Part shown: positions 1 to 12,699 of the stretch, one piece after another
How the letters are laid out: each line of letters begins with the position of its first letter
Numbering within the stretch: the first letter of the stretch is position 1
NCBI GenBank assembly: GCA_017415455.1
Contig: JAFQGS010000025.1
Span: 1 to 35,743 of the forward strand
Length of the DNA stretch: 35,743 nucleotides
Direction: 5' to 3'
Origin: Prevotella sp.
GTDB lineage: Bacteria; Bacteroidota; Bacteroidia; Bacteroidales; Bacteroidaceae
The notes under the pieces: model-generated
The model's database searches: none
What the model was told of the DNA's origin: nothing
Seen by the model: the letters and a program-made list of their open reading frames with translations, nothing else
Program-made: the position numbers and the translations under genes

Positions 1-2
1 TA

Positions 3-176
3 ATGGAAGCACCACAGCAAAGATGGATTTATGCAGGATATGCAAGTGGTAAAGCTGCTGCAATGTATTTAGGTGCCAAATTGGCAAATAGTATAAGCAA
101 GGACAAAACTGTATACGTAAAAATAGTTCCTCGAGCAAATGGAAAAGGTTGGGATGTCTATTATAGATGTGAATGA
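3..176 (+). CDS. C-terminal end or small hypothetical protein, 57 aa visible
   Basis: An open frame runs from the left edge to a TGA at 174-176. An ATG at 3 allows a complete 57-residue protein, but the frame is still open at the edge, so it may be the tail of a longer gene. The visible part is soluble, with an Ala/Gly-rich helix (AGYASGKAAAMYLGAKLA) and a strand-like end (VYVKIVPRANGKGWDVYY). I do not recognise the family. A small GTGCGT/ACGCAC hairpin at 184-204 follows it and may end its transcript. Confidence 0.45.
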   Translation: MEAPQQRWIYAGYASGKAAAMYLGAKLANSISKDKTVYVKIVPRANGKGWDVYYRCE

Positions 177-342
177 TATTATGGTGCGTGAATAAATTAC
201 GCACTATAATAATTAAACGGTCTTCATTTATACATAGAAAGGATATGTCATACAAGTCAAACATTAATTCTCAGAAACCACGTTCGTGATGCAATAAAAC
301 ATTACGCTTGTAGTTATCAAATAAATTGATGAAAGGTTAAAA

Positions 343-606
343 ATGGGTAGAAAGAAAATACTAACGCTTATCATCGGCTTTTGCGAGACTGCTTTGATGT
401 TGAGTGAGATTTTTGTCGGATTGGTATTCAACGGAGATAAAGAAGTGAATTTTGTTTTGAGTCTGCTGTGGATACCAGTAACATTGATTGATGTATGCTT
501 TAGGTTGTGCCTGCTGAGAGACCAGAAGTGGTATGTACGTATGCTGTTGCCAATAGCTGCCGTGCTGTTTGCTATTGTGAAGTATCAAATATATGTTAAT
601 CAATAA
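343..606 (+). CDS. Small hypothetical membrane protein, 87 aa
   Basis: The 87-residue protein has about three hydrophobic segments (roughly residues 6-28, 36-57 and 67-83) separated by short charged loops, which fits a small inner-membrane protein. The ATG at 343 is the first in frame and follows an A-rich stretch typical of Bacteroidetes starts. No family motif is recognised. It has no partner at operon distance: the next gene starts more than 200 bases downstream. A frame on the opposite strand over the same bases is most likely a shadow, because it has low-complexity composition and no membrane or domain logic. Function unknown. Confidence 0.5.
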   Translation: MGRKKILTLIIGFCETALMLSEIFVGLVFNGDKEVNFVLSLLWIPVTLIDVCFRLCLLRDQKWYVRMLLPIAAVLFAIVKYQIYVNQ

Positions 607-710
607 GTGCGTATGTTAAAAAGACGTTGTTAGCGGCGTGTTTTATAAAAATATTCATAAACATGATTTTAGTTAACACGGATTATTAAAAACATATCCG
701 ATTGTTTATA

Positions 711-718
711 TACATTTG
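711..718 (+). promoter_or_regulatory. Possible -7 box (TACATTTG)
   Basis: TACATTTG matches the Bacteroidetes -7 consensus TAnnTTTG, 107 bases upstream of the beta-barrel-like gene at 825. A clear -33 TTTG was not found at the usual distance, so the call is weak. Confidence 0.3.
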
Positions 719-824
719 CACTGTTCTTAGACGTCACGGCATGATAAGTGTAAGGCGGAGAAGATAATATGAAAGGGAAGAGATATTAACATATTATTTT
801 TATAACAAACAAAAAACCAAAATT

Positions 825-1367
825 ATGAAAAAGATTATCATTACATCAATGATGGTGCTGTTCGGCGTTATGGGCGCAATGTCACAGAACGACAGCAGTA
901 GCTTTTACGAAAAGTCACTCGGTGAAAGATTCTTCATGGATATCAAGATGAAGGCTGCCAGTAAGGACAACAGCACAAACATGGTTGGTGTAGGTGCGGA
1001 GCTGGGCTTTGAGATTACACCGCGCTTGTTCGCAACTGCCAACTATGAAGGTGTATGGAATATGAAAGAGGCTGGCGGCGCACGCACATGGTGGCAGACA
1101 AACAACATTGGTGGAGGATTGGGATATAAGTTCTACCTCGCTAAGAATGACAAGTCGCTGTTGCAGTCTGCTGCACTGAAAGCCTCGCTGCTTACAAGCA
1201 TCGGCGGTGTGGACTGGAAACAGACGGTGTATGAGGTAGGAGCCGAACTGGAAGGCAAGGGTAAGTACAAGCCTGTAATCGGATTTGGTTATCGTCACAC
1301 CAACTCACGCACAACAGGTCTGCCAGACCATAATGGCTTCTATATGTCAATAGGTCTGAGATTTTAG
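825..1367 (+). CDS. Small outer-membrane beta-barrel-like protein, 180 aa
   Basis: The protein begins with a signal peptide (residues 1 to about 20, MKKIIITSMMVLFGVMGAMS then QND). The rest alternates polar and hydrophobic residues in short strands with Gly and aromatic residues (for example MVGVGAELGFEI, NIGGGLGYKFYL, KPVIGFGYRHTN) and ends FYMSIGLRF. A final strand ending in Phe is typical of outer-membrane barrels assembled by BAM. About eight strands would fit this length. A porin-family or OmpA-barrel-like role in the outer membrane is inferred, but the ligand is unknown. The ATG at 825 directly precedes the signal peptide. A small membrane gene follows 39 bases downstream and may be co-transcribed. 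Confidence 0.65.
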   Translation: MKKIIITSMMVLFGVMGAMSQNDSSSFYEKSLGERFFMDIKMKAASKDNSTNMVGVGAELGFEITPRLFATANYEGVWNMKEAGGARTWWQTNNIGGGLGYKFYLAKNDKSLLQSAALKASLLTSIGGVDWKQTVYEVGAELEGKGKYKPVIGFGYRHTNSRTTGLPDHNGFYMSIGLRF

Positions 1368-1406
1368 AATATACTTGTAAACGCAACGATACACCCATAG
1401 ACAATA

Positions 1407-1643
1407 ATGGCGATGAACAAGAGAATAAATAAGGTGGTGATAGCTGTAGTATTAGCAATAGATCTAATCTTGGCTGTGGTGTTAGGCCTTGCCGTAAGTT
1501 GGATGATGGCAATACCATTTGCAATATGCGGGCTGGCAACGGTTGTCGCACTGCTTGGCAAGAAGGCTGAAACATGGTTTTACGTCACAATATTTGTTGT
1601 GACAATACTATTTTTGCTGTGGTGTATTATAGATATGTTATAA
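1407..1643 (+). CDS. Small hypothetical membrane protein, 78 aa
   Basis: A 78-residue protein with three hydrophobic segments (about residues 9-28, 30-48 and 56-76) and a basic N-terminus (MAMNKRINK), consistent with an inner-membrane protein with its N-terminus inside. A second ATG two codons downstream (1413) is an alternative start. It lies 39 bases after the barrel-like gene and before a long-loop hairpin at 1663-1713, so it is probably the last gene of a two-gene unit. No known family is recognised. Confidence 0.5.
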   Translation: MAMNKRINKVVIAVVLAIDLILAVVLGLAVSWMMAIPFAICGLATVVALLGKKAETWFYVTIFVVTILFLLWCIIDML

Positions 1644-1662
1644 AGTAAGAACTTGATATAAC

Positions 1663-1713
1663 CTTCGGGCGTGTGTCCTCTTGACTTTTGTTACAATAGG
1701 CGCACGCCCGAAG
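1663..1713. terminator. Long-loop hairpin, possible bidirectional terminator
   Basis: CTTCGGGCGTG (1663-1673) pairs perfectly with CACGCCCGAAG (1703-1713) around a 29-base loop. It sits between the plus-strand gene ending at 1643 and the mntP 3' fragment that reads the other way, so in the pre-island arrangement it would have lain between convergent genes. No long T-run follows either arm, which lowers confidence. Confidence 0.4.
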
Positions 1714-1715
1714 TG

Positions 1716-1794
1716 TATCATGCCAATAGGTGCTCTATGAGAATCTTTATACCGATGACAATAAGTATCACGCCGCCAATGCACTCGGCAGTCT
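1716..1794 (-). repeat. Left 79-bp direct repeat, copy of mntP 3' end
   Basis: This stretch matches 7765-7843 at 78 of 79 positions; the single difference is at 1754 versus 7803. It contains the mntP stop codon and about the last 25 codons, in the same orientation as the intact gene. With the right copy it flanks about 6 kb of accessory DNA. Confidence 0.9.
1718..1794 (-). pseudogene. mntP 3' remnant
   Basis: Read on the minus strand, this is the last part of the manganese exporter MntP, ending at its stop codon (complement of 1718-1720). Upstream of 1794 the similarity stops abruptly, so no start codon or first five membrane helices are present. It most likely marks the original end of mntP, displaced when the island entered, while the intact gene at 7767-8324 now uses the other copy. 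Confidence 0.8.
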
Positions 1795-1824
1795 GCCCGT
1801 ATTAGTTTCTTGACACAAAACAAC

Positions 1825-1842
1825 TTTCGTTCAACGCTCAAC
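1825..1842 (+). repeat. Left imperfect inverted repeat of the island
   Basis: TTTCGTTCAACGCTCAAC matches the reverse complement of 7704-7721 at 17 of 18 positions. It lies 31 bases inside the left direct repeat, facing the right-hand copy. Confidence 0.6.
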
Positions 1843-1865
1843 ATTCATTCTGATTTGTATTAAAA

Positions 1866-1978
1866 TCTTGGAAAAACGGCAAAAAATACGGGAAAAGTCT
1901 TGGAAAAACGGCATAAATACCTTATTTTTGTATTGGAAAAGTGGAAGTTTTCTCCATTTTAAGCTTGGAAAAGTGGAA
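1866..1978 (+). repeat. Four related TTGGAAAA repeats around the ATPase promoter
   Basis: Two copies of TCTTGGAAAAACGGCA lie at 1866-1881 and 1898-1913, and two copies of TTGGAAAAGTGGAA at 1933-1946 and 1965-1978. A partial GGAAAAG lies at 1891-1897. The -33 element falls in the second copy and the last two copies lie downstream of the -7 box. The layout resembles a set of operator sites for a repressor or autoregulator; this is inference. Confidence 0.6.
1900..1930 (+). promoter_or_regulatory. Promoter of the AAA ATPase gene
   Basis: TTG at 1900-1902 and TATTTTTG at 1923-1930 match the Bacteroidetes -33/-7 pattern with a 20-base spacer. Transcription would start near 1937, about 70 bases before the ATG at 2007. 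Confidence 0.55.
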
Positions 1979-2006
1979 AAACTTATAAATAACAGAGGAG
2001 AACAAT

Positions 2007-3353
2007 ATGCTAAAACGAAAGATTGACAACTATATTTGCAACTATTATAAGACTTCTCGCAACGCCCTTCTTGTCACTGGAGCGCGCCAGATAGGCAAGA
2101 CATACTCCATACGACAATTCGGCAAGTCGTTTAAAAGTTTTATAGAGATAAACTTTATTGAAAATCCTGAAGCCATAAAGATATTCAATGGAGCCAACAG
2201 CAGCGAAGACATTATTCTCCGCCTTTCTGCCATTACCCAAAAAACATTGATTAAAGGTGAAACACTTATATTTTTTGATGAGGTACAAAAATGTCCAGAG
2301 GCAGTTACCGCTATAAAATTTTTAGTTGACGAAGGTTCATACCGCTATATCCTTAGTGGGTCGCTATTGGGCGTAGAGTTGAAAGACCTGCGCTCAGAAC
2401 CCGTTGGCTATATGGGAATAAAAGAAATGTACCCTCTCGACTTCGAAGAATTTATAGGTTGCGTTGGTGTCAACGAAATTGTCATGCAGTCATTGCGCAA
2501 TGCCTGGACAAACAAAACTGCCGTTGATGAGCTTATCCACTCCAAGATAATGGAACTGTTCAGGCTATATCTTGTTGTAGGAGGAATGCCGGCTGCTGTA
2601 AGCAAATATATCCAAAGCAATAATCTTATGCAGGTCATGACCGAGCAGCATAACATACTCCAACTGTACAAACGTGACATTTCACAATACGACCCAAACA
2701 ACAAACTCTATATAGAAGACATTTTCAATCTCATTGCTCCAGAACTAAATGCCAAGAACAAGCGTTTCATATTAAAACGCCTCAACGAAAACGCCAAGTT
2801 TGAAAGATACCAAAACAGTTTTCTCTGGTTGAAAAACGCTGGTGTAGCCATACCTACATACAACATAGAAGAACCCAAGACCCCTCTGTTGCTGTCTCGC
2901 TCACGCAACCTTTTCAAATTATTCCTGAACGATATTGGTTTGCTTGCAGCCCAATACGCAGACGGCATACAGTTGCGTATCATCAACGGAGACAAAGGCA
3001 TCAACTTCGGGTCTGTCTATGAGAATGCCGTTGCACAAGAACTTGTTGCACACGGTTTTGAACCATATTATTATAACAACAAGAAACGCGGAGAACTGGA
3101 TTTTGTAATAGAGCACAATGGGAAAGTGCTGCCTATCGAAGTAAAATCAGGTAAAGACTACGAGACACATCGCGCCTTGTCAAACATCATGGATTGCGCC
3201 GAATACCACCTTCCTGAAGCAATAGTCTTCAACAATGATAACCTAAAACAGATAGGCAACATTCTTTATGCCCCAATCTATATGATTATGTTCCTTGAAA
3301 AAAACATCACAGCACCAACTTATTATAAAGTTGATTTGAGTGGGATTGGGTAA
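2007..3353 (+). CDS. AAA family ATPase with DUF4143 and nuclease-like C-terminus, 448 aa
   Basis: Residues 25-32 (GARQIGKT) form the Walker A loop and LIFFDEVQ (D91, E92) the Walker B, defining the N-terminal AAA_14-type ATPase. The C-terminal part is DUF4143-like and contains GELDFVIEH...IEVKSGKDY, with D365, E378 and K380 spaced as in PD-(D/E)XK nucleases. Length is normal for this Bacteroidetes family. The cellular role of the family is not established; the domains suggest ATP-driven action on nucleic acid. The gene lies inside the island, has its own promoter within a repeat cluster, and is followed by a separate promoter for the WYL gene. An A/G-rich AGAGGAGAA precedes the ATG and is one of the few good ribosome-binding sites here. 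Confidence 0.88.
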   Translation: MLKRKIDNYICNYYKTSRNALLVTGARQIGKTYSIRQFGKSFKSFIEINFIENPEAIKIFNGANSSEDIILRLSAITQKTLIKGETLIFFDEVQKCPEAVTAIKFLVDEGSYRYILSGSLLGVELKDLRSEPVGYMGIKEMYPLDFEEFIGCVGVNEIVMQSLRNAWTNKTAVDELIHSKIMELFRLYLVVGGMPAAVSKYIQSNNLMQVMTEQHNILQLYKRDISQYDPNNKLYIEDIFNLIAPELNAKNKRFILKRLNENAKFERYQNSFLWLKNAGVAIPTYNIEEPKTPLLLSRSRNLFKLFLNDIGLLAAQYADGIQLRIINGDKGINFGSVYENAVAQELVAHGFEPYYYNNKKRGELDFVIEHNGKVLPIEVKSGKDYETHRALSNIMDCAEYHLPEAIVFNNDNLKQIGNILYAPIYMIMFLEKNITAPTYYKVDLSGIG

Positions 3354-3453
3354 GACGATAAAAACAGAATGTAATGTGCGTCATCTGTTTATTCTATAAG
3401 TTATCGGCTGACTTTAAAATCTTTTTGTGAAACAATACATAAATATGGAATTT

Positions 3454-3483
3454 TTTGCAGTCATGCAAAAAATATTATCTTTG
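3454..3483 (+). promoter_or_regulatory. Promoter of the WYL regulator gene
   Basis: TTTGC starts at 3454 and TATCTTTG occupies 3476-3483, spacer 18 bases. The -7 box covers the GTG that would open the longest frame, so that GTG cannot be the start. The ATG at 3504 is chosen instead, leaving a short leader. Confidence 0.65.
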
Positions 3484-3503
3484 TGGCAATACAAATAACT
3501 ACG

Positions 3504-4553
3504 ATGAATAACATATTTGAAGGTAATAGTTGTAAATCACAATGTGCACGTTCTGCATATAAACTCTTGATGACTCGCCAATGGGTAAGTTACAAACTCA
3601 TTATCGAAGATTATTTGGGGAAACAAATAACATATAGTGTTTCTAAATGCAAAGAATATGGCGAACTTAAAAAAGCTGTACCTGAAGTAATTAAATTAAT
3701 TACAGATAAAATTACTCAAAGTATTGAAACAAGAGGAAATATCAGAAATCGAGAATTTAGATATGTAGGGAATGATAACGACCCATTGAAAGACCTTTTA
3801 AATTCAATAGTAATAAAAGACCTGCAAACCTATTGGCAGTTTTGTCAAAACACAGCAGGTTTTGTACCAATTGTATGGTTGGAGCATTTCTTTCGGAATA
3901 GTCATGATTTGCTTGACATTAAAAAACGCAAAAGCAAAGGAGAAGAAAGGATTAGCACCAGTTATGAATCAAAATTGAGAAACATAGAACTTTTACCAAA
4001 ACTCTACGAAGCAATAGCGAATCGTCATGTATTGGCATTGGAATATGAACAGTATTATAGCAAGACCGTTTCACTTATTTTCCATCCACACTATTTAAAG
4101 GAATATAACAATAGGTGGTTCTTATTCGGGCATGCAGAAGGACTTGAACCTCAGATTGGTTATAATGTGGCACTCGACCGTATATCCTGTGAACCAATAT
4201 TGTTGGAAAATAAAACATATATAGAATCACCATCTGGATTCTATACTGATTTATTTAAAGATATTGTTGGTGTTACCAACAAAAAAGATTCTGAAATACA
4301 GACAATACGCATAAGGGCATTTTCGCCATATATATTCAATTTGATTGAAACAAAACCTATCCATTCCTCACAGATAGTAGATTTGCCATATAATGGTAAT
4401 TATGGTGACTTTTTGCTAAGAATTAAGGTAAACAATGAATTCATAGGACGTATTCTCCAAATGGGACAAGATTTAGAGGTCATATCACCTGAAAATATTC
4501 GTCTGAAAATAAAAGAGAGAATCGAATGTATGAGTCAAAGATACCAGCTTTAG
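3504..4553 (+). CDS. WYL domain-containing regulator, 349 aa
   Basis: The middle of the protein has the WYL pattern: NRHVLALEYEQY (about residue 172), FHPHYLKEYNNRWFLFG (about 190-206) and YNVALDRI (about 220). A WCX-like C-terminal region follows and ends near IKERIE. The N-terminal 150 residues are helical and may bind DNA, but I cannot see a clear helix-turn-helix. WYL proteins sense ligands, often nucleotides or nucleic acid, and commonly repress neighbouring phage-defence operons. It lies directly upstream of the three-gene operon at 4682 and in the same direction, which fits a regulator of it. The start at ATG 3504 is preferred over GTG 3483, which lies in the promoter. Confidence 0.85.
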   Translation: MNNIFEGNSCKSQCARSAYKLLMTRQWVSYKLIIEDYLGKQITYSVSKCKEYGELKKAVPEVIKLITDKITQSIETRGNIRNREFRYVGNDNDPLKDLLNSIVIKDLQTYWQFCQNTAGFVPIVWLEHFFRNSHDLLDIKKRKSKGEERISTSYESKLRNIELLPKLYEAIANRHVLALEYEQYYSKTVSLIFHPHYLKEYNNRWFLFGHAEGLEPQIGYNVALDRISCEPILLENKTYIESPSGFYTDLFKDIVGVTNKKDSEIQTIRIRAFSPYIFNLIETKPIHSSQIVDLPYNGNYGDFLLRIKVNNEFIGRILQMGQDLEVISPENIRLKIKERIECMSQRYQL

Positions 4554-4617
4554 CCACAGAAAGATGCTCCACTGATTAGTTCCTAACAAAAAAGAACTAT
4601 TATATATATAAACTTTC

Positions 4618-4648
4618 TTGCATAGTAAGAGCAACTATACTACTTTTG
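4618..4648 (+). promoter_or_regulatory. Promoter of the three-gene island operon
   Basis: TTGC at 4618-4621 and TACTTTTG at 4641-4648 fit the Bacteroidetes promoter (20 bases between TTG and TA). Transcription would start near 4655, 27 bases before the ATG at 4682. Confidence 0.65.
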
Positions 4649-4681
4649 CAATCGAGAAAACAATTTGTTTAATTTTAAATT

Positions 4682-5809
4682 ATGATATCCATGAGTAAAA
4701 CTAACACAGAAGCAATGACAAGATTGTTAAATGATTTAGCTGCAAATATTGGTTACAGCCTTATAGCCAATCCTTTTGACACACCTTTCATTAAAGAAAG
4801 TTTGGCAAAAATTGAAATACCAGACAACAAACGCTTTATCTGGCCAGTGCCCGTATCACATCTTGAGAACGAAGTTTACAAAGAATTCCGCGAGCAATGG
4901 ATTAAATACGATGCAATAGATACTATTGCCGAATTGTCATTTGTTTGGCCATCAAGCGAAAACGACCATGTTGCCATAATACTCATGGATTTTAACCGTT
5001 ACCGTAGGGGGGCTATCAAATTTGTAGATGCAACAAATTGGGATTTGGGCGAGGACAATGACATGGCTGCAGTATGCAACATGATTGTACATGACGTTTT
5101 TCCTGGCGAATCCCATCTTGCATTTAACAACATGTACGAAGATAGCATGGATGAGGAACTTGATGATCGTTGGGACGAACAGGTTAATGTGGTAAGCTGC
5201 ATGGTACTAACATCTTCATTAAAACCGACCTCATATATATCCAAAGTATTACCCAAAGAGGGTTTTATATTCAAGGACTTGGAAATTAAAGAGGATGATT
5301 CCGATTTGGGATATTTGAGATTTATAGGAGCTGAACTTAAACTTCCATTGAAGGAACACTATGGATACGGTAAAATAAAAGGAAGAATGTTACATAGAAA
5401 CAACTTGAAATCTTCAACTTTGAATTATAGAATCAACACTAAAGATATTTCAGAGGGAGAATATGAAGGGCAATATTATAAGCTAAATGGAAAAGCTATT
5501 GTGATTTCTATGTTAGATGAATTGAATCCAACAGTAGTTGATACCGATGGAGAAACGATTTACGTTCCATTTAACAACATGGCTGTCATTACAGAGGACC
5601 TTGATTATGACTTAGAATATGTTGCATGGGAATTGAGAAAAGATTACGTAAAGAAGCAGCTTTCTTATGGCAGCGAAGGAAGACTCTTTTGGTATAATGT
5701 AAAAATAGAAATTCCTAAAAATGGAATTGAAGAACAAAAGAGAATCGTTGAAAAGGAACGCCGGGAACTTATTGAGTTTTACAAGAACGAATTGAGCGGA
5801 ATTGAATAA
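4682..5809 (+). CDS. Methylase-specificity-like protein without a methyltransferase core, 375 aa
   Basis: Residues about 70-120 (DAIDTIAELSFVW...IILMDFNRYRRGAIKFVDAT) resemble the segment after the catalytic motif in type I N6-adenine methylases. The C-terminal third (DLEYVAWELRKDYVKKQL, then IEIPKNGIEEQKRIVEKERR) resembles the end of a specificity-subunit half: a distal TRD-like region and a long helix. No NPPF/NPPY motif and no SAM-binding glycine loop are visible, so it should not methylate DNA. It may recognise DNA or act as a scaffold for its partners. It is the first gene of an operon; its stop overlaps the next start (TAATG at 5807-5811). An ATG at 4691 is an alternative start. It could be a truncated methylase, but the dedicated promoter and intact coupling argue for a functional gene. 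Similarity is judged by eye. Confidence 0.6.
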   Translation: MISMSKTNTEAMTRLLNDLAANIGYSLIANPFDTPFIKESLAKIEIPDNKRFIWPVPVSHLENEVYKEFREQWIKYDAIDTIAELSFVWPSSENDHVAIILMDFNRYRRGAIKFVDATNWDLGEDNDMAAVCNMIVHDVFPGESHLAFNNMYEDSMDEELDDRWDEQVNVVSCMVLTSSLKPTSYISKVLPKEGFIFKDLEIKEDDSDLGYLRFIGAELKLPLKEHYGYGKIKGRMLHRNNLKSSTLNYRINTKDISEGEYEGQYYKLNGKAIVISMLDELNPTVVDTDGETIYVPFNNMAVITEDLDYDLEYVAWELRKDYVKKQLSYGSEGRLFWYNVKIEIPKNGIEEQKRIVEKERRELIEFYKNELSGIE

Positions 5810-6669
5810 TGCAGGATGCTATGGAATGGATAAAAGTTCTTTGGATGAATAATGGTGACAATGCCCTACAAAAATACGTAAATCTTGGCAGGGAATACAA
5901 TATAGACATCACAACCTGTAACTGCATGAAAGATTGCCGGTGTAGACTCCACGACCCTTTGGAGAGTTGGGATGCTGTGATGCTAAATATGGAAGTCAAA
6001 ATAATAAGTTGCAATGAAAAGGCATCATCAAAAGGGTTATTAAATGCTATACAGTCTATAAAGGGGATACCTTGCTTCATTGTAACAGCAGAGAATCAGA
6101 TTGACGAGATCGCAAAATACAGTTTAGAAGCACACAACAAAGAACCATACTTTTTAAATAATGAAACAGAGGTGTTATTTGAACATATAAGAATAGAGGT
6201 GAGTAAATCTTTAGAAAGAAGATATGCTAAACTCTGTGACTTTTGCGGAGAAAAAGAATTTTTAAAAATATTGACATTAATTGATAGGGATGATATTCGG
6301 ACAGACACAAGTATTCCAAATAGATGCAGACAAATGTTGGAATGGGTGAAAGATTCAAATATATTTGAAAGCGAATTAAAAGGATTGTCCTTAAATGATT
6401 TTAGCAGATATATGGGTAATGCCATTAATTTACCAGAATATGTCAAAAGAAGTTTACACGCATGTGTCAGTATCAGCAACCAAGGTTCTCATTTTACAGA
6501 TACGACCAAAATGATATCAGGAGGAGAGGCTCCCTATCTTACAAAATCACTAATATACGATTTATTAAATATTTTAGATTGGTGCGCATCACAAAATGGC
6601 AACATATTCATACCTAAATACAAAACTGATAAAACAAATAAACATGACTGGAAGCAATTTGAGAATTAA
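5809..6669 (+). CDS. Degenerate response-regulator-like protein with helical C-terminal domain, 286 aa
   Basis: The first 120 residues follow a receiver-domain pattern: IKVLWMNNG at the first strand, WDAVMLN at the third, IPCFIVTAEN at the fourth. The acidic pair that holds magnesium is replaced by N14-N15 and the phospho-acceptor position by N60, so normal phosphorylation is unlikely. Residues about 150-280 are helical and carry a conserved-looking stretch, RSLHACVSISNQGSH then GEAPYLTKSLIYDLLNIL, seen from memory in Bacteroidetes proteins next to DNA methylases. Its start overlaps the previous stop by one base, and the next gene starts inside its end, so translation is coupled. Its role is probably signalling or assembly within the system; the biochemistry is unknown. 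Confidence 0.6.
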   Translation: MQDAMEWIKVLWMNNGDNALQKYVNLGREYNIDITTCNCMKDCRCRLHDPLESWDAVMLNMEVKIISCNEKASSKGLLNAIQSIKGIPCFIVTAENQIDEIAKYSLEAHNKEPYFLNNETEVLFEHIRIEVSKSLERRYAKLCDFCGEKEFLKILTLIDRDDIRTDTSIPNRCRQMLEWVKDSNIFESELKGLSLNDFSRYMGNAINLPEYVKRSLHACVSISNQGSHFTDTTKMISGGEAPYLTKSLIYDLLNILDWCASQNGNIFIPKYKTDKTNKHDWKQFEN

Positions 6670-7585
6670 TTCGGATGAATATTATGTTATTGGACTTTGC
6701 AATGAAGTTCTTGGAAGAGTAGCGAAGCAACAGCATAAATTTGATTTTCTTAGAGGTGATACAGGGGTAAGACTACCTGTAGATGCCTACTATGAAGATT
6801 TAAATCTTGTTGTTGAATATTGCGAAAGACAGCATACAGAACCTGTTGCATTCTTTGACAACAAGTTAACTGCAAGTGGGGTACCAAGAGGAGAGCAAAG
6901 AAAAAAATATGATGCAAGAAGAAGGGAAATTCTTCCTAAACATGGCATAACAGTAGTAAGCATTCATTACTATGATTTTGGAACATCCAAGAAACTCAAA
7001 CGCAATTACGAAAAAGACAAAAAGGTTGTAGTAAATATACTAAAACCATATATTGAAGGGCCGATTAAAACGGGAAACAATACTTATAAGAAAATCTTCT
7101 TTATATCTCTTTTATCTGTATTATTAATAATGTTTGCACTGGGACATTGCAGACCAGCTGGCAGCAATCAACAAGAGCATACTAGCATCAGTTCTGCAAA
7201 GCAGCAGTCAACAGTATCCACAAACCAAACTGCACAACAACGACCAAAAGAAACTGCGAAGCCACGCTATCATTATAAACTTAATGTTAGGACAAAACAG
7301 ACAGAAGAGCTGTATGAGGTTGAAAATGCCGGCAAATATGTAAAGGTAAAAAAACGCAAGTATGGAAACATAGGGATTCCTGATGGACATTATGAATGGG
7401 ACGCTGATGTACTACTTAAAACAGAGAAAGAGATGTATGAATATTTAAAGAAGCATTACAAAGAAATAAAAGATAATAGTTTCGATGAAATATCATACTA
7501 CGAGGACATGCGTGATGATTACCTTGACGACCCAGAAGATGAAATTCGTTTTCCACCTGAGATATTCGAAACTTTAGATGATTGA
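6644..7585 (+). CDS. Membrane-anchored PD-(D/E)XK-like nuclease, 313 aa
   Basis: Residues 1-140 look like a small restriction-type nuclease fold: E21 in the first helix, D47 in LPVDAYY, E58 in LVVEYCERQH, then SGVPRGEQRKKYDARRREILP and GITVVSIHYYDF. The lysine of the classic motif is not obvious (C60 or E61 at its place), so activity needs proof. Residues 151-168 form one membrane helix preceded by two lysines, placing the nuclease part in the cytoplasm. A low-complexity Ser/Thr/Gln linker and an acidic domain (to 313) would lie outside. The frame opens at 6596, but the ATG at 6644 is preferred: overlap with the upstream gene falls from 74 to 26 bases and the nuclease fold begins just after it. 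It is the last gene of the operon. Confidence 0.62.
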   Translation: MTGSNLRINSDEYYVIGLCNEVLGRVAKQQHKFDFLRGDTGVRLPVDAYYEDLNLVVEYCERQHTEPVAFFDNKLTASGVPRGEQRKKYDARRREILPKHGITVVSIHYYDFGTSKKLKRNYEKDKKVVVNILKPYIEGPIKTGNNTYKKIFFISLLSVLLIMFALGHCRPAGSNQQEHTSISSAKQQSTVSTNQTAQQRPKETAKPRYHYKLNVRTKQTEELYEVENAGKYVKVKKRKYGNIGIPDGHYEWDADVLLKTEKEMYEYLKKHYKEIKDNSFDEISYYEDMRDDYLDDPEDEIRFPPEIFETLDD

Positions 7586-7631
7586 AAGTTATCAGTTTGT
7601 CTTTCCTATCTTCTCAAAGCTCACCCCAACA

Positions 7632-7648
7632 CCTCTCCAAATGAGAGG
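7632..7648 (+). terminator. Weak hairpin after the island operon
   Basis: CCTCTC (7632-7637) pairs with GAGAGG (7643-7648) around CAAAT. It lies 47 bases after the operon stop, within a TCACCCCAAC...GAGAGGGG sequence of a type common between Bacteroidetes genes. There is no T-run. Confidence 0.35.
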
Positions 7649-7703
7649 GGAGAAATGGAAACTCATACAATTATAAATAATTTATGATACTGTCAAAATA
7701 AAC

Positions 7704-7721
7704 GTTGAGCGATGAACGAAA
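7704..7721 (-). repeat. Right imperfect inverted repeat of the island
   Basis: GTTGAGCGATGAACGAAA is the inverted partner of 1825-1842 (17 of 18). It lies 43 bases inside the right direct repeat. Confidence 0.6.
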
Positions 7722-7764
7722 TCTTAGCATACGTCTGCACTCCTTAAAATCAATCTATAAAGCC

Positions 7765-7843
7765 TATCATGCCAATAGGTGCTCTATGAGAATCTTTATA
7801 CCTATGACAATAAGTATCACGCCGCCAATGCACTCGGCAGTCT
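7765..7843 (-). repeat. Right 79-bp direct repeat within intact mntP
   Basis: Partner of 1716-1794 (78 of 79). It forms the 3' end of the complete mntP gene plus two bases past the stop codon. Confidence 0.9.
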
Positions 7844-8324
7844 TGCGGTATCTGTTGCCGAAAAGGTTGCCGATATAAACACCTACGGCGGAGAAGAGAA
7901 ACGTGGTGATGCCTATAACCATGGCTGAGGATAGGATGGACGCATTGAGAAACGCCAGCGATACTCCTACGGCCAGTGCGTCGATGCTTGTGGCAACAGC
8001 CAGGAGAAACATTATGCGTATGGCAAAGCCCTTGTCCTTGCTCTCCTCCTTGCTCTCAAATGCTTCCTTTATCATGTTTATACCTATATATGCCAGCAGG
8101 ATGAATGATATCCAGTGGTCCCATGCCTCCATAAATGCGGCAAACGCGCTGCCGAGCAGATAGCCGGCGACGGGCATCAGAGCCTGAAAACCTCCAAACC
8201 AAAGACCAGCGCAAAGAGCATGACGGAAGCGGACACGTGGCAATGCCAGACCCTTGCCTATTGATACGGCAAAGGCGTCCATGGACAATCCTATCGCTAT
8301 TATTATAAGTTCTGTTATTCCCAT
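7767..8324 (-). CDS. mntP: Manganese efflux pump MntP, 185 aa
   Basis: The protein has six hydrophobic helices and the two signature repeats of MntP: GLSMDAFAVSIGKGLAL near the N-terminus and ATSIDALAVGVSLAFL in the second half, each with its conserved Asp in the membrane. It exports Mn2+ across the inner membrane and protects against excess manganese. It is the last gene of the minus-strand run from rlmN, 41 bases after the flippase-like gene. No manganese riboswitch fits in that short gap, so expression is probably from the upstream promoters. Its last 25 codons are the right copy of the direct repeat flanking the island, so the gene may have been completed by DNA the island brought. Confidence 0.93.
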   Translation of the reverse strand: MGITELIIIAIGLSMDAFAVSIGKGLALPRVRFRHALCAGLWFGGFQALMPVAGYLLGSAFAAFMEAWDHWISFILLAYIGINMIKEAFESKEESKDKGFAIRIMFLLAVATSIDALAVGVSLAFLNASILSSAMVIGITTFLFSAVGVYIGNLFGNRYRKTAECIGGVILIVIGIKILIEHLLA

Positions 8325-8365
8325 TAGTATATATCTTTATTTTGCTTGTTACGGAGATGTGCTCC

Positions 8366-9346
8366 TTATGCTTTCGTCTTCATCATCAGCAGGCCGATGG
8401 CAGTCCATATCAACTCACGCAGTCTTACTATGAGCGCCACAAAGATGCCAGAACTTGCGGTCATTGCCAGACCTGTGGATGAGAGAAGGAATCCGCCTTC
8501 TCTGCCGCCTAACTGCAGTGGCATGAAGAAAAGGATGTTGGCAAGGAGACTCGTGAACGCCAATATCAGAACGCAGTGGATATAGCTGACGTCAGGTGTG
8601 AGCACAAGGAGAATGAACATAATCTCAAATGAGGACAGCAGGCGGCAAGCCAACTCAAGGGCTACAGCAGAGACAAATGTGCGGCGGTTCTGTCCGTGCA
8701 GTGCCGCTATCTGCTTGTCGATGTTGTCGAGCTCCGTCTTCCTGCTCTCTGTGAAGCGTATTGCGTGTTTGCCCACGACAGGCATCTTGCCGGCAATGCG
8801 CATTATGCTCAGCGCAATGCCCTTGCGGTAGCCCTTGATGAAAAACCATATGGCAAAGATGCATACAGAGGCTATGACGGCAAGCAGCACAGACATGAAT
8901 GTGTTAAGCGGCTCGGTGAGAACATACAGTATTGTTGCGATAAGCCAAAACCAGAAGTGACTGAAGATGTGGGTCATGACATAGAGAAGCACAGAGGATG
9001 TGGCGCGCTCAACACCTATGCGTGGTGTCAGTTCCATTATGCGATAAGGCTCACCGCCCATCAGTCCGCACGGCGTGGCATAGTTGAGTGCGAACCCGGA
9101 CACCGTTACCTTATATAGCCACCAGAAGCCTATCTCTTTCTTGTCCTTGCCTCCGCTTCTTATTATGACATACCATGCCGCAGTATTAATGATATATAGT
9201 AAGCCCCAAAGCGCTACTACGGCAGGAAACCAATAGCCGGCGCGTTGGAGCCCGTTAATGATGTCTTCATAGTTGAGCTGCGTCAGCATCAGTATGAGCA
9301 GCACAACGCCAAAGACGAAAAACATGTTCTTGTATTTCTTCTTCAT
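8366..9346 (-). CDS. Flippase-like integral membrane protein (LPG synthase TM region family), 326 aa
   Basis: The protein is mostly hydrophobic with about eight membrane helices and has features of the UPF0104/lysylphosphatidylglycerol-synthase transmembrane family: GFALNYATPCGLMGGEPYR in the first half and MPLQLGGREGGF near the end. The soluble aminoacyl-transferase domain of MprF is absent, so it would not itself make lysyl-lipids. Relatives are thought to move or anchor lipid-linked molecules in the inner membrane. It sits 31 bases after pdxA and 41 before mntP, within the same minus-strand run; this neighbourhood gives no clue to its substrate. Confidence 0.8.
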   Translation of the reverse strand: MKKKYKNMFFVFGVVLLILMLTQLNYEDIINGLQRAGYWFPAVVALWGLLYIINTAAWYVIIRSGGKDKKEIGFWWLYKVTVSGFALNYATPCGLMGGEPYRIMELTPRIGVERATSSVLLYVMTHIFSHFWFWLIATILYVLTEPLNTFMSVLLAVIASVCIFAIWFFIKGYRKGIALSIMRIAGKMPVVGKHAIRFTESRKTELDNIDKQIAALHGQNRRTFVSAVALELACRLLSSFEIMFILLVLTPDVSYIHCVLILAFTSLLANILFFMPLQLGGREGGFLLSSTGLAMTASSGIFVALIVRLRELIWTAIGLLMMKTKA

Positions 9347-9377
9347 CAGAATACCATTATGGTATTAGTCCTATTTG

Positions 9378-10478
9378 TTATTCTGCCTTGTTCTTTGGAA
9401 TGGCGAATCTAACCTTGTCGCTGTCGTCACGCTTCTCGTGATACAGTTTCTTCAAAGGGTTGGCAAATGGAAGGTCGTAATTATAGCGATTGCGGTAAAT
9501 ATCAATAGCTGTGTAAACGGCCTGTCTGAACGAACCCTCGTCGGCTGTTCCCTTTCCGGCAATCTCATATGCTGTGCCGTGGTCTGGCGAGGTGCGTATG
9601 ATAGGAAGTCCGGCCGTGTAGTTAACGCCATTGCCGGCAGCAAGACTCTTGAAAGGTGCCAGTCCCTGGTCGTGATACATTGCCAGTATGCCGTCGAAAG
9701 TGTCATAGGCGCCATGTCCGAAGAATCCGTCTGCCGCATAAGGACCGAAGGCATTGATGCCCTTCTCTGACAATTCGGCGATGGCAGGTGATATTATCTC
9801 TTCCTCCTCATTGCCAATAACGCCGTTGTCACCAGCATGCGGATTGAGAGAAAGTATTGCGATGCGAGGCTTTGAAACGCGGAAGTCGCGTTTTAAAGTG
9901 TCGGAGAATATCTCCGCCTTCTCCATGACCGCCTCTTTTGTAATGGCTGCCGCAACGTCTTTTATAGGCAGGTGTGTTGTCACCAATGCAACACGTAGCC
10001 TGTCGTTAAGCAGAATCATGAGGGCTTTAGCGTCACCTTCCATGCTTTGCTCAATATATTCTGTGTGTCCGCAGAATCTGAAGTTATCGCTTTGAATATT
10101 GTTCTTGTTGATAGGTGCCGTGACAAGGACATCGAAGAGACCATTGCGGTAGTCCTCCATGGCGCGCTCAAGAGCAAGATAAGCAGCCTTGCCCGCTTCT
10201 GCAGACGGAGCGCCCAGCTCCACTTTTACCTCCTCGTCGAATGTGGCTATGAGGTTAAGCTTGTCGGGGTGTGCCTCCTCGGCGCTGTTTATAATACTGA
10301 AGTTAGCCTGTATGTCAAGGGCATTGCGGTGATATGCTGCCACTTTTGGCGAACCATATATAATAGGTGTGCAAAGTTCAAGCATTGCAGGGTCGGCAAA
10401 GACTTTGAATATAACCTCGTAGCCAATACCATTAGTGTCTCCGTGAGTGATGGCTACCTTTATTTTTCTGTTCTCCAT
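9378..10478 (-). CDS. pdxA: 4-hydroxythreonine-4-phosphate dehydrogenase PdxA, 366 aa
   Basis: The N-terminal ITHGDTNGIGYEVIFK, central FCGHTEYIE, and C-terminal AMYHDQGLAPFK and IIRTSPDHGTAYEIAG are the PdxA signatures; their histidines bind the divalent metal. It oxidises 4-phosphohydroxy-L-threonine with NAD in the DXP-independent-of-PdxST branch of pyridoxal phosphate synthesis, in the cytoplasm. At 366 residues it is somewhat longer than the E. coli enzyme, as is usual in Bacteroidetes. It lies 109 bases after the DUF4837 gene and 31 before the flippase-like gene. Several open frames on the other strand of this gene are shadows. Confidence 0.96.
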   Translation of the reverse strand: MENRKIKVAITHGDTNGIGYEVIFKVFADPAMLELCTPIIYGSPKVAAYHRNALDIQANFSIINSAEEAHPDKLNLIATFDEEVKVELGAPSAEAGKAAYLALERAMEDYRNGLFDVLVTAPINKNNIQSDNFRFCGHTEYIEQSMEGDAKALMILLNDRLRVALVTTHLPIKDVAAAITKEAVMEKAEIFSDTLKRDFRVSKPRIAILSLNPHAGDNGVIGNEEEEIISPAIAELSEKGINAFGPYAADGFFGHGAYDTFDGILAMYHDQGLAPFKSLAAGNGVNYTAGLPIIRTSPDHGTAYEIAGKGTADEGSFRQAVYTAIDIYRNRYNYDLPFANPLKKLYHEKRDDSDKVRFAIPKNKAE

Positions 10479-10587
10479 ATCTGTTCTTGTTTATATATTC
10501 GTATTTATTTGTTACTTATTCAGCTTATGCAAGTTCCGCCTCATCTTCCTTTAACTTCCTTTGTCTTCTTGGCATGCGAAACTTTAG

Positions 10588-11634
10588 TTACTTGTTAGCA
10601 GGTTTGTTGTCCTTTAATTTGTTCAGAGTATATAGCGCTGCCTCCAGACGTCTCATCCTGTCGCGTTTTTTCTCGCCAGGGCCGTAGATGAATGCTTCTG
10701 CTGTTATTACTCTGTTGTTGGCAGAGTCAACGATAGAATGTGTTATGAACGGCCCGCCCATTGCGTCGTTCTCCATCTCCCATAGTCCTTTTACTACAAG
10801 AATGCTCTTGTTGTTGTAAACCGTTCTGCTTACCGACGACGTGTTTGGTGCTGTGGTCATATACATACCTTCACTCTGACCGGGGATATTCTCCTTCATT
10901 ATGCTGTCGCGCATCTCAATGACCTTGTCCATAGTAAGGTCTAAGCCGTCGTATGTGTATACGCAGATGTTCTTCATGCATTGTGGATTCTTGTCAGACA
11001 ACCAGATGAAGTTTTCCCCCTTCTTCTCATATTTCAGAGTTGGCGGAATGAGAATGAAACATTTCAACATTGTCTCTATATCTTCCTTCGCCTTGGTATT
11101 GTTGTTGTCTGTAAGTATCTGCACTTGTGTGCTGTTGTCTTGTGTGATTATGAGCTGCTTTATTTTTTTCATAAACTTACCAACTTCCTTTTGCAGGCTT
11201 TCAGCCGACGGGGTGTTGATTGATATGATAGTCTGAGGGTAAGCGTATGTGTTTTTTGTATATGTAAGCTCAGCCTTTTTGTATTTACTGCTATCTGCAT
11301 TTATGCTTATAATACTGCGTGAGTATTGTGTGTGCTTATTGACTTGGTTAGTTGTGATGCGCTTGACGTCAAAATAATTCTCTACTTGTGGAAGTCCCGC
11401 AACAGCCTCGTTCAAGGCCTCATACATTACGTCTCCTGTTTTTTTGTCATTGCTAATAAGCAGTACCTCATACAATTCTCCGATACTGTGCGGCTTGTGC
11501 TTCTCCCTGTGCTCATTGTTGCATGCCGTCAGCAATAATAAGAAAAGACATGCGTATAACAATGATGATATATGGCCTTTATAGGAATTGCTGTTGCTAA
11601 AGCGTTGCGTAGCTTGTGGAACCTTCTCTCTCAT
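10588..11634 (-). CDS. DUF4837 family lipoprotein, 348 aa
   Basis: The N-terminus has an unusually long polar stretch (about 26 residues) before a hydrophobic segment ending in the lipobox LLTAC, so the mature protein would be lipid-anchored at Cys38 in the envelope. The body has the DUF4837 pattern, including GELYEVLLISNDK near the start and GGPFITHSIVD with AEAFIYGPGEKKRD near the end. The function of the family is unknown. The setting rlmN - DUF4837 - pdxA recurs in Bacteroidales from memory. It is 33 bases after rlmN. A shorter signal peptide starting at a non-ATG codon nearer the hydrophobic part is possible. Confidence 0.85.
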   Translation of the reverse strand: MREKVPQATQRFSNSNSYKGHISSLLYACLFLLLLTACNNEHREKHKPHSIGELYEVLLISNDKKTGDVMYEALNEAVAGLPQVENYFDVKRITTNQVNKHTQYSRSIISINADSSKYKKAELTYTKNTYAYPQTIISINTPSAESLQKEVGKFMKKIKQLIITQDNSTQVQILTDNNNTKAKEDIETMLKCFILIPPTLKYEKKGENFIWLSDKNPQCMKNICVYTYDGLDLTMDKVIEMRDSIMKENIPGQSEGMYMTTAPNTSSVSRTVYNNKSILVVKGLWEMENDAMGGPFITHSIVDSANNRVITAEAFIYGPGEKKRDRMRRLEAALYTLNKLKDNKPANK

Positions 11635-11667
11635 AGGTGGAATTGTATGAAAAATGAGCGTTTGTTC

Positions 11668-12699
11668 TTATTGTGTCTCTTTCTTTGCAGTACTTAACAG
11701 TCCGCATGCTGCATATATGTCTTGTCCGCGGCTTGCCCTTATTGTGGTGAATACGCCATGATTGGTAAGATAGTCACGCAGAGCCTCCATCTTGGTGTCT
11801 TCCGCTCCGTGCAGCTCTGTGCCTGGGATATGATGGAATCTTATGAGGTTAATGCGACATTCAAGTCCTTCAAGAAGGCGTATTATCTCGCGGGCATGAG
11901 TAGTGGAGTCGTTGACGCCTTTAAAGACAATATACTCAAATGACAGGCGTCGTTGATGAGTGAAGTCGTAGTTCCTCATAAGGCTGATAATGTCTTTTAT
12001 GGACATCGCCTTTTCCGCAGGCATTAACATTGCCCTTTGCTCAGGAATAGGCGTGTGCATACTGATAGCGACATGGCAGTCGCTCTCGTCAAGGAAACGC
12101 TTTAGCTTGTTCTTAATGCCAACGCTGCTCACAGTTATTCTCTTAGGGCTCCAGGCGTATGTGTAGTCTGCCGTAAGAATCTGTGTGGCTTTAAGAACCT
12201 CATCAAGATTGTCCATTGGCTCTCCCTGCCCCATGAACACAATGTTTGTCAGTTTGTCTCGTTCGGGGAGGGAATATATCTGATTGAGAATATCTGTTAC
12301 TGTCAGGTTGCCTTCGAACCCCTGTTTGCCAGTCTGGCAGAAAAGGCAGTTCATTTTACATCCTACCTGGGATGATACGCATAATGTCGCACGGTCCTTG
12401 TCTGGAATATAAACAGTCTCAATATATTTCCCTGCAGCGGTAGGGAACAAGTATTTGATAGTTCCGTCCACAGAGCGCTGGCAATCAGCATAAGGTAAGC
12501 ATCCGACGGTGTATGCGTTACTTATTTTCTCTCTGTTGCTTTTTGAGATGTTTGTCATCTCGTCAATGGAACTTACATGCTGCTTGTAGATCCAGTTTGC
12601 TATTTGTCCTCCCGTAAAAGCAGGCATGCCCAATGACTTCGCCACTTCTTTAAGTTCGGGAAGCGACATGCCTAATAGAGGTTTCTTGATTGCTGACAT
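11668..12699 (-). CDS. rlmN: 23S rRNA (adenine2503-C2)-methyltransferase RlmN, 343 aa
   Basis: Radical-SAM enzyme that methylates A2503 of 23S rRNA and also A37 of some tRNAs. CKMNCLFC (C114, C118, C121) is the CxxxCxxC cluster motif. The region GEPMDNLDEV binds SAM, and SRGQDIYAACGLL near the end supplies the catalytic Cys332. Length is normal. It is the first gene of the minus-strand run leading to mntP. A TAACTTTG box on the minus strand (12725-12732) would give a leader of only about 20 bases. Confidence 0.96.
   Translation of the reverse strand: MSAIKKPLLGMSLPELKEVAKSLGMPAFTGGQIANWIYKQHVSSIDEMTNISKSNREKISNAYTVGCLPYADCQRSVDGTIKYLFPTAAGKYIETVYIPDKDRATLCVSSQVGCKMNCLFCQTGKQGFEGNLTVTDILNQIYSLPERDKLTNIVFMGQGEPMDNLDEVLKATQILTADYTYAWSPKRITVSSVGIKNKLKRFLDESDCHVAISMHTPIPEQRAMLMPAEKAMSIKDIISLMRNYDFTHQRRLSFEYIVFKGVNDSTTHAREIIRLLEGLECRINLIRFHHIPGTELHGAEDTKMEALRDYLTNHGVFTTIRASRGQDIYAACGLLSTAKKETQ

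Follow-up and report, generated by a model that had tools for sequence, protein, structure and literature searches.

The window analysed here is a 35,743-nucleotide (nt) stretch of Prevotella sp. DNA (assembly GCA_017415455.1, contig JAFQGS010000025.1, positions 1 to 35,743), from a genome assembly of 2.5 Mb that is 91% complete. Behind a WYL-domain regulator gene it carries three coupled genes, P1, P2 and P3. On balance these probably form a candidate defence system, phosphate-independent and directed at DNA, whose ancestor is a two-component cassette often found next to type I restriction genes. Comparison with relatives showed P1 to be a methylase remnant joined to a specificity domain, P2 a receiver without phosphorylation residues, and P3 a nuclease-like domain joined to a membrane domain; it also showed that reduced operons of this kind form one clade with a swappable DNA enzyme. 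An earlier reading of the window from its sequence (the first-pass annotation) had proposed an uncharacterised defence operon at this place, and the defence hallmarks are indeed there: a WYL regulator, restriction ancestry, a swappable DNA-damaging enzyme and an insertion between repeats. The genes and domains are as follows (E, expect value):

3483-4553, + strand: WYL/WCX regulator gene, frame with GTG start (Pfam PF13280, E 2.4e-6)
4682-5809, + strand: P1, specificity domain preceded by a type I methylase remnant, the portion past motif IV (E 4.4e-30 in hhalign against parental fusions); likely start 4691
5809-6669, + strand: P2, pseudo-receiver (acidic pair NN, phospho-Asp replaced by Asn, Lys by Leu) with a conserved C-terminal part (E 4.3e-42 in hhalign against parental receivers)
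6596-7585, + strand: P3, a single chain with a nuclease domain, a membrane helix and a conserved acidic domain at the C-terminus; alternative start 6644
6644-7090, + strand: P3 nuclease domain, Vsr/homing-endonuclease-like (PHROG 559 and 9084, E 7e-7 and 2e-5)
7094-7150, + strand: P3 membrane helix, residues 167-185 (mean hydropathy 2.43)
7217-7582, + strand: P3 C-terminal domain, homologous to a separate membrane-anchored partner protein of relatives (E 1e-10 to 6e-18)

All four frames were located where the first-pass annotation had put them, and the coupling that it described holds, with overlaps of 1 nt between P1 and P2 and of 26 or 74 nt between P2 and P3. Among these genes, library searches put a name on the WYL gene only. 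Neither Pfam nor NCBIfam gave a match above cut-off for P1-P3, and PADLOC 2.0.0 gave no significant match to the core genes (best E 0.001 for P1, none for P2, 0.006 for P3); its only strong matches here are the WYL gene and the gene at 2007-3353, described below. The product of the WYL gene also matches the WYL protein of a parental locus, L028 (E 2e-29).

A Parental Sensor Kinase Family

The names of P1 and P2 come from a parental family. Among 295 same-order genomes, P1 weakly matched two much longer proteins, on contigs G052:C344 and G157:C5 (three genomes including the window's own). Both have a WYL gene just upstream, of which only the C-terminal end is on the G157 contig, and in G157 a receiver gene and then a DUF7255 gene lie downstream. 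The long parental protein contains N6_Mtase (E 1.2e-32), Methylase_S (E 1.3e-4) and HATPase_c (E 1.6e-8) domains. A profile of its second half matched 16 of the 395 genomes of a phylum sample; 11 were fetched, and the five lowest, matching the kinase end only, were left out. The parent is a two-component cassette found across Bacteroidota: one protein fuses a methylase remnant, a specificity domain and a histidine kinase, and a receiver follows.

We aligned 20 fusion proteins, taken from the phylum-sample loci, same-genus loci and a Myroides odoratimimus plasmid. The H-box histidine and the N-box asparagine are kept in 20/20, and the canonical methylase motif IV, (D/N/S)PP(F/Y/W), in only 2/20. 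On this pattern the parent appears to be a sensor kinase in which a mostly inactive methylase, together with a specificity domain, serves as the sensor.

Parental family loci: L028, L029, L050-L060, L066-L068, L070, L072, L107-L109

A WYL gene is near the cassette in 15 of 20 parental loci (L060, at a contig end, was left out of the count). It is divergent in L052, L055 and L057, separated from the cassette by one gene in L067, L070 and L107, and was not seen in L050, L054, L056, L058 and L059. An HsdM gene directly follows the receiver in 11 of 20 (L028, which is cut, was left out): ten by Pfam, all with N6_Mtase and HsdM_N, and one by annotation. The nine loci scored without HsdM directly downstream were judged by gene order and BLAST (L029, whose contig ends after the next gene, L053, L055, L058, L059, L060, L068, L070 and L107). 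One parental locus, L070 (2202-11068), departs from the usual layout in having two receivers and another kinase-like protein, and its WYL protein is the closest to the window's that we saw (E 2e-74).

P1: Methylase Remnant Joined to a Specificity Domain

In profile-profile comparison, residues 37-348 of P1 align with the stretch of the parental fusions that lies past motif IV and extends through the whole specificity domain. A profile of P1 and nine parental crops, run against the Protein Data Bank, matched the C-terminal half of HsdM (E 4.6e-21) and HsdS (E 5e-6), and P1 matched the specificity part of L029 (E 1e-6), which itself matches Methylase_S (E 1.3e-4). The HsdS-type specificity domain that marks type I systems is thus present by way of relatives; window P1 alone is recognised as a specificity domain at E 0.001 at best. 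A profile of the six reduced P1 proteins alone matched solved methylases only at E 0.02-0.1 and gave no HsdS match among solved structures, so the naming of P1 depends on the parental link. Searches of structures with the reduced proteins alone weaken the direct naming of P1 and P2, not the indirect one.

No S-adenosylmethionine (SAM)-binding half (motif I) or catalytic motif IV was found in P1: the alignment begins after motif IV and N6_Mtase gave no Pfam match. The first-pass annotation had called P1 methylase- and specificity-like without a catalytic core, which the parental relatives bear out. P1 ends after the specificity domain and lacks the histidine kinase, and a specificity-plus-kinase profile found no match at E 1e-8 in the window's genome, which is 91% complete. 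These alignments trace P1 to the fused sensor of a kinase system, not to an HsdS encoded on its own. Identity among the four unfused P1 proteins is 48-64% in the core and 16-29% in the specificity part, a difference to be expected if targets change.

P2 Is a Receiver without Phosphorylation Residues

P2 aligns over almost its full length with the parental receivers. Five positions were compared: the two of the acidic pair, the phospho-Asp, the Thr/Ser and the Lys. All five are intact in each of the 21 parental receivers, whose acidic pair is D or E followed by D; the window's P2 reads N, N, N, T and L. The four reduced systems that have a receiver share this loss: the acidic pair is NN in 4/4, the phospho-Asp has become N, N, S and N, the Lys is lost in 4/4, and the Thr is kept in 4/4. 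The receiver domain is absent from the other two of the six, L069 and L103. In every locus examined, the kinase and the phosphorylation residues are either both kept or both lost. The reduced receivers alone matched solved receivers at E 0.1 at best.

The alignment with 21 intact receivers agrees with the first-pass description of P2 as receiver-like without phosphorylation residues. Its suggestion that P2 might be a relay fares worse, since P2 is a decayed two-component receiver and a phosphate relay is very unlikely; phosphorelay through an orphan partner is likewise disfavoured, as only the Thr of the five receiver residues is kept. No match to P2 was found in plasmids and phages, and no relative of P1 or P2 in viral contigs. 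Several weak hits were put down to chance: 18 other genomes in the order search with P2 (E 0.003-0.1), Relaxase_M, SID-1, ArsS and YhcN matches to P2 or P3 (E 0.01-0.1), and structure matches to CdiI (E 0.0014) and Cas2 (E 0.0036).

P3 and a Separable Membrane Partner

The PHROGs matched by the first domain of P3 are phage HNH/homing-endonuclease profiles. Residues D63 and E74 (counted from 6596; D47 and E58 of the first-pass annotation, a numbering that implies the alternative start 6644) are invariant over five aligned rows, a pattern that we read as Vsr-like PD-(D/E)XK. With these profile matches and its one hydrophobic stretch, P3 fits the earlier description of a nuclease-like protein with one membrane helix. 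Its C-terminal domain is 35-41% identical to the separate partner proteins of relatives and shares with them a DDPED..RFPPEIF tail; on this homology the membrane part is a separate conserved module, fused to the nuclease in the window. Profiles of the nuclease, the GIY-YIG-like proteins and the membrane partner matched solved structures at best E 0.08-0.34, none convincing.

Relatives of the P3-type nuclease were found in 12 actinobacterial plasmid records and, weakly, in two phage records. In a type I-like locus, L030 (11073-13580), a P3-type nuclease with a longer N-terminus directly follows an HsdS-like gene, and the next gene looks GIY-YIG-like by eye.

The Reduced Operons Form One Clade

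Searched with P2, 60 same-genus genomes gave matches in six; a profile built from P1 and its first short relative matched 26 of 299. Twelve of these 26 were examined, namely the nine best matches and three others (the remaining 14 match weakly, E 5e-5 or worse): six contain the full fusion, and six, the window included, the reduced operon. The reduced operon thus occurs in 6 of 299 same-genus genomes (Prevotella group), representing six species, in all six with a WYL gene directly upstream, so that these genes do recur with WYL genes elsewhere, a check that the first-pass annotation had itself named. In a scan of genome contigs the one relative to come up was Prevotella sp. UBA4330, whose contig is that of L069. 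The six systems read, in gene order:

Window: WYL, P1, P2, nuclease-membrane-C-domain fusion
L106: WYL, P1, P2, nuclease (55% identical to that of P3), membrane C-domain protein
L105: WYL, P1, P2, GIY-YIG-like protein, membrane C-domain protein
L104: WYL, P1, P2, UDG superfamily enzyme, membrane C-domain protein
L069: WYL, P1 fused to the C-terminal part of P2, GIY-YIG-like protein, membrane C-domain protein
L103: WYL, P1 fused to the C-terminal part of P2, GIY-YIG-like protein, last gene broken (only the first 30 residues of the partner match)

By type, the effector is a Vsr-like nuclease in two systems, GIY-YIG-like in three and a UDG superfamily enzyme in one (L104; PF03167, E 2.1e-7), and each of the three types looks like an enzyme that acts on DNA. 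The GIY-YIG assignment is based on G-x-Y, YIG, R, E and N, conserved in four aligned rows and taken to be the functional residues of GIY-YIG nucleases, and on Pfam matches below cut-off.

In the receiver tree the six reduced systems form one clade (97/96) adjoining the same-genus parental loci L066, L107 and L108 (99/97), and with the five phosphorylation columns removed the four systems that have a receiver still group (96/89). The P1 tree places the reduced systems on one side of a branch (99/96). Because the trees have midpoint roots and some long-branched rows, the direction of change rests on the receiver tree together with the losses themselves.

Ratios of nonsynonymous to synonymous substitution rates (dN/dS) count as evidence for the four pairs with dS <1.5: 0.21 for the P1-P2 fusion (L069-L103, the one pair covering P1 and P2), 0.09 for the GIY-YIG-like gene, 0.14 for the partner and 0.08 for the WYL gene, values in line with continued selection. 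Of the remaining comparisons, four pairs have dS 1.7-2.3 with dN/dS 0.04-0.10, and the saturated ones have infinite dS (two P1 pairs) or dS of 2.3 and 3.4 (two pairs with the window).

The Enzyme-Partner Pair outside the Clade

The membrane C-domain protein was found in 15 of 249 same-genus genomes, in 13 of them strongly. A DNA enzyme lies beside the partner, with at most one small gene between, in 12 of the 13 strong matches (by types that were Pfam-tested in part only: GIY-YIG 5, UDG type 5, Vsr-like 2); no DNA enzyme adjoins it in the thirteenth, G750. Five of the 13 are reduced systems and the other eight are without P1 or P2 in the stretch fetched, the sole P2 match among these eight, in L125, being chance-like (E 0.001 over 50 residues).

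Loci L125, L127, L128 and L129 combine a UDG-type enzyme, a small protein that looks winged-helix-like by eye (fused in L129, otherwise separate) and the membrane partner, without P1 or P2; the unit in L125 adjoins AbiEii, PDDEXK_4 and SLFN_AlbA_2 genes. In L126, L130 and L131 a GIY-YIG protein precedes the partner (PF20815, E 8e-33 and 8e-31 for the two tested), and the pair in L126 has a WYL gene upstream. A viral contig, IMGVR_UViG_3300032007_000303 from IMG/VR (L157), encodes at 4668-5084, near a thymidylate synthase gene, a 139-residue protein with a membrane-like N-terminus by eye and an acidic tail like that of the partner (14/24 residues identical); it is possibly a viral mimic or a borrowed part.

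Promoters and the Inserted Segment

3438-3485: imperfect inverted repeat, 22-nt arms, 77% complementary, spanning the WYL promoter
3454-3483, + strand: promoter of the WYL gene, TTTG-N18-TAnnTTTG, exact match
4641-4648, + strand: TACTTTTG, possible -7 box for P1-P3, read from the sequence

The motif TTTG-N18-TAnnTTTG, which we take to be the Bacteroidota promoter consensus, occurs four times in the window, where 0.78 occurrences are expected; sigma-70-like promoters number 25 there, about what chance would give (24.5 expected). As the -7 box of the WYL promoter ends at 3483, ATG 3504 is a likelier start of the WYL gene than GTG 3483, and ATG 4691 is preferred for P1 because it better fits the starts of relatives. 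The first-pass annotation had given P1-P3 a promoter of their own. The exact promoter match belongs to the WYL gene; for P1-P3 a separate promoter is less certain, since only the TACTTTTG half is present. The inverted repeat at 3438-3485 may be an operator.

1711-1807: left copy of a 97-nt direct repeat, repeating the last 24 codons of the mntP-like gene, 92% identical to 7760-7856
2007-3353, + strand: AAA_14/DUF4143 ATPase gene, PADLOC candidate PDC-S01 (Pfam E 2e-27 and 3e-31; PADLOC E 6e-200)
7760-7856: right copy of the 97-nt repeat, within the 3' end of the mntP-like gene
7767-8324, - strand: mntP-like gene

The AT-rich island noted in the first-pass annotation is real, with 35.6% GC in 1808-7759 against 45.0% in 7857-32000, and it has attachment-like repeats at both ends, as mobile elements do (97 nt, 92% identical). 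The left copy encodes the same final 24 residues as the mntP-like gene, so that the 6-kb segment looks like an insertion at the mntP 3' end. No integrase was recognised in 1808-7759, where the open reading frames (ORFs) were read and the main genes searched with Pfam. Among 79 further genomes of the genus a single one matched the mntP-end repeat, over 29 nt, and neither a recurrent nor an empty site was found among them; in the stretches fetched for the five other reduced loci, no repeats of at least 25 nt flank the operon. The AAA_14/DUF4143 gene lies inside the repeat-bounded segment and outside the conserved operon; neither it nor the flanking repeats had been mentioned in the first-pass annotation.

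Comparison with Known Systems

Judged by gene content, the operon lacks defining features of type I restriction-modification (R-M), of two-component systems and of Detocs. A standard R-M locus was rejected, as in the first-pass annotation: the methylase core is gone, and no HsdR was seen by eye among the ORFs in 1-12000 and those of at least 200 residues in 12000-35743. With type I R-M the operon shares an HsdS-type specificity domain linked to the late portion of an N6-methylase, and its parental cassettes adjoin HsdM in more than half of the loci; it differs in having no SAM-binding half and, instead of HsdR, a small exchangeable enzyme. Two-component systems differ from it in having a kinase partner and a receiver with the acidic pair, phospho-Asp and Lys. 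BrxR of BREX is an example of WYL regulation of a defence operon, and the window resembles it in the WYL gene before a defence-like operon and the inverted repeat over a promoter, whereas the genes downstream are unrelated to BREX.

Detocs consists of a kinase, a receiver and an effector, the last an ATP nucleosidase in the best-described case. As treated in PMC11249213 and PMC9966839, Detocs is likewise defence made from two-component parts plus an effector gene, and the parental kinase-receiver cassette is similar to it in outline. The operon itself differs, with no kinase or ATP nucleosidase-type effector domain found in it by Pfam, no phosphorylatable receiver, and a sensor derived from a methylase and specificity protein. 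P2, having lost the acidic pair, Asp and Lys, corresponds to the aspartate-less receivers of PMC12632262; it differs from the pseudo-receivers described there in that its loss coincides with loss of the partner kinase and that its operon includes a DNA enzyme.

Weighing the Alternatives

Several points weigh against reading the operon as a P1/P2-directed defence system. The charges flanking the membrane helix differ between the fused and separate forms and so do not point to one topology; the GIY-YIG Pfam matches of the two reduced-system proteins tested are below cut-off (E 0.0046 and 0.032); and the window's own genes have no usable dN/dS, their pairs being near or at saturation. The diverged specificity part could also reflect relaxed constraint, and between the window and L069 the order is reversed (core 26%, specificity part 34%). 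L106 is without most of the specificity part and the membrane partner of L103 is broken, so either these parts are not strictly needed or those copies are decaying. These losses, with those of the kinase, the methylase half and the phosphorylation residues, could be taken to mean that the operon is a functionless, decaying remnant of a two-component cassette. We consider this very improbable: the reduced systems are one clade with new gene content, the window's frames are intact, gene coupling is kept, and dN/dS is low (0.08-0.21) in the four usable pairs, and simple gene decay is disfavoured on these grounds.

The enzyme-partner pair also occurs without P1/P2 nearby (in 7 of the 12 strong partner matches with an enzyme, within the stretch fetched) and so may act alone. 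It could belong to a toxin-antitoxin-like or selfish cassette, in which the DNA enzyme is a toxin restrained by the acidic membrane partner or by P1/P2, the unit maintains itself and defence is incidental. The same acidic tail on a viral-contig protein and the repeat-bounded, mobile-unit-like segment would suit such a cassette. We think it unlikely, since partner and nuclease are one chain in the window, unlike a separable antitoxin, and P1/P2 are kept with the pair within one clade, with a specificity domain in 5/6 that a plain pair would not need. UDG-type and Vsr-type enzymes act in repair in other settings, and a methylase-derived domain could read host methylation, so a host DNA-maintenance module, with P1/P2 reading host DNA or its methylation and the enzyme acting on host damage, deserves mention. 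It appears improbable against the patchy distribution (6/299), the effector swapping, the AT-rich inserted segment and the restriction-linked parents.

A Possible Mechanism and What It Would Mean

The preferred reading remains a DNA-targeting defence operon. The comparisons showed identities, losses and gene association, from which we infer recognition, assembly, cutting and defence. P1 would recognise a DNA sequence or DNA modification state; P2, formerly switched by phosphate, would now be a fixed adaptor tying P1 to the effector; and the effector would cut invading DNA, or excise bases from it, at the inner membrane. The WYL protein may control expression from the promoter that the inverted repeat overlies and repress the operon until a cue releases it. 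By analogy, the operon would work like a restriction system in outline while descending from two-component parts.

In the literature searched (mainly open-access, few preprints) no description of the reduced operon or of the parental family was found. We tentatively suggest a new class of immune system, in which a restriction-linked two-component sensor has shed its phosphate chemistry. Its fixed platform for DNA recognition would consist of two dead proteins, the methylase/specificity protein and the receiver, and different DNA-destroying enzymes (Vsr-like, GIY-YIG or DNA glycosylase) would be plugged into it with the same membrane partner; behind it would stand a wider family of methylase-derived sensor kinases signalling to a receiver beside type I restriction genes. 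The findings suggest conversion of a sensing pathway into a direct-acting one, kinase and receiver chemistry being lost together while the scaffold stays and new DNA enzymes are attached, and they make testable what pseudo-receivers do without phosphate. They also point to a larger family of methylase-derived sensor kinases beside type I restriction genes, possibly controlling or supplementing restriction.

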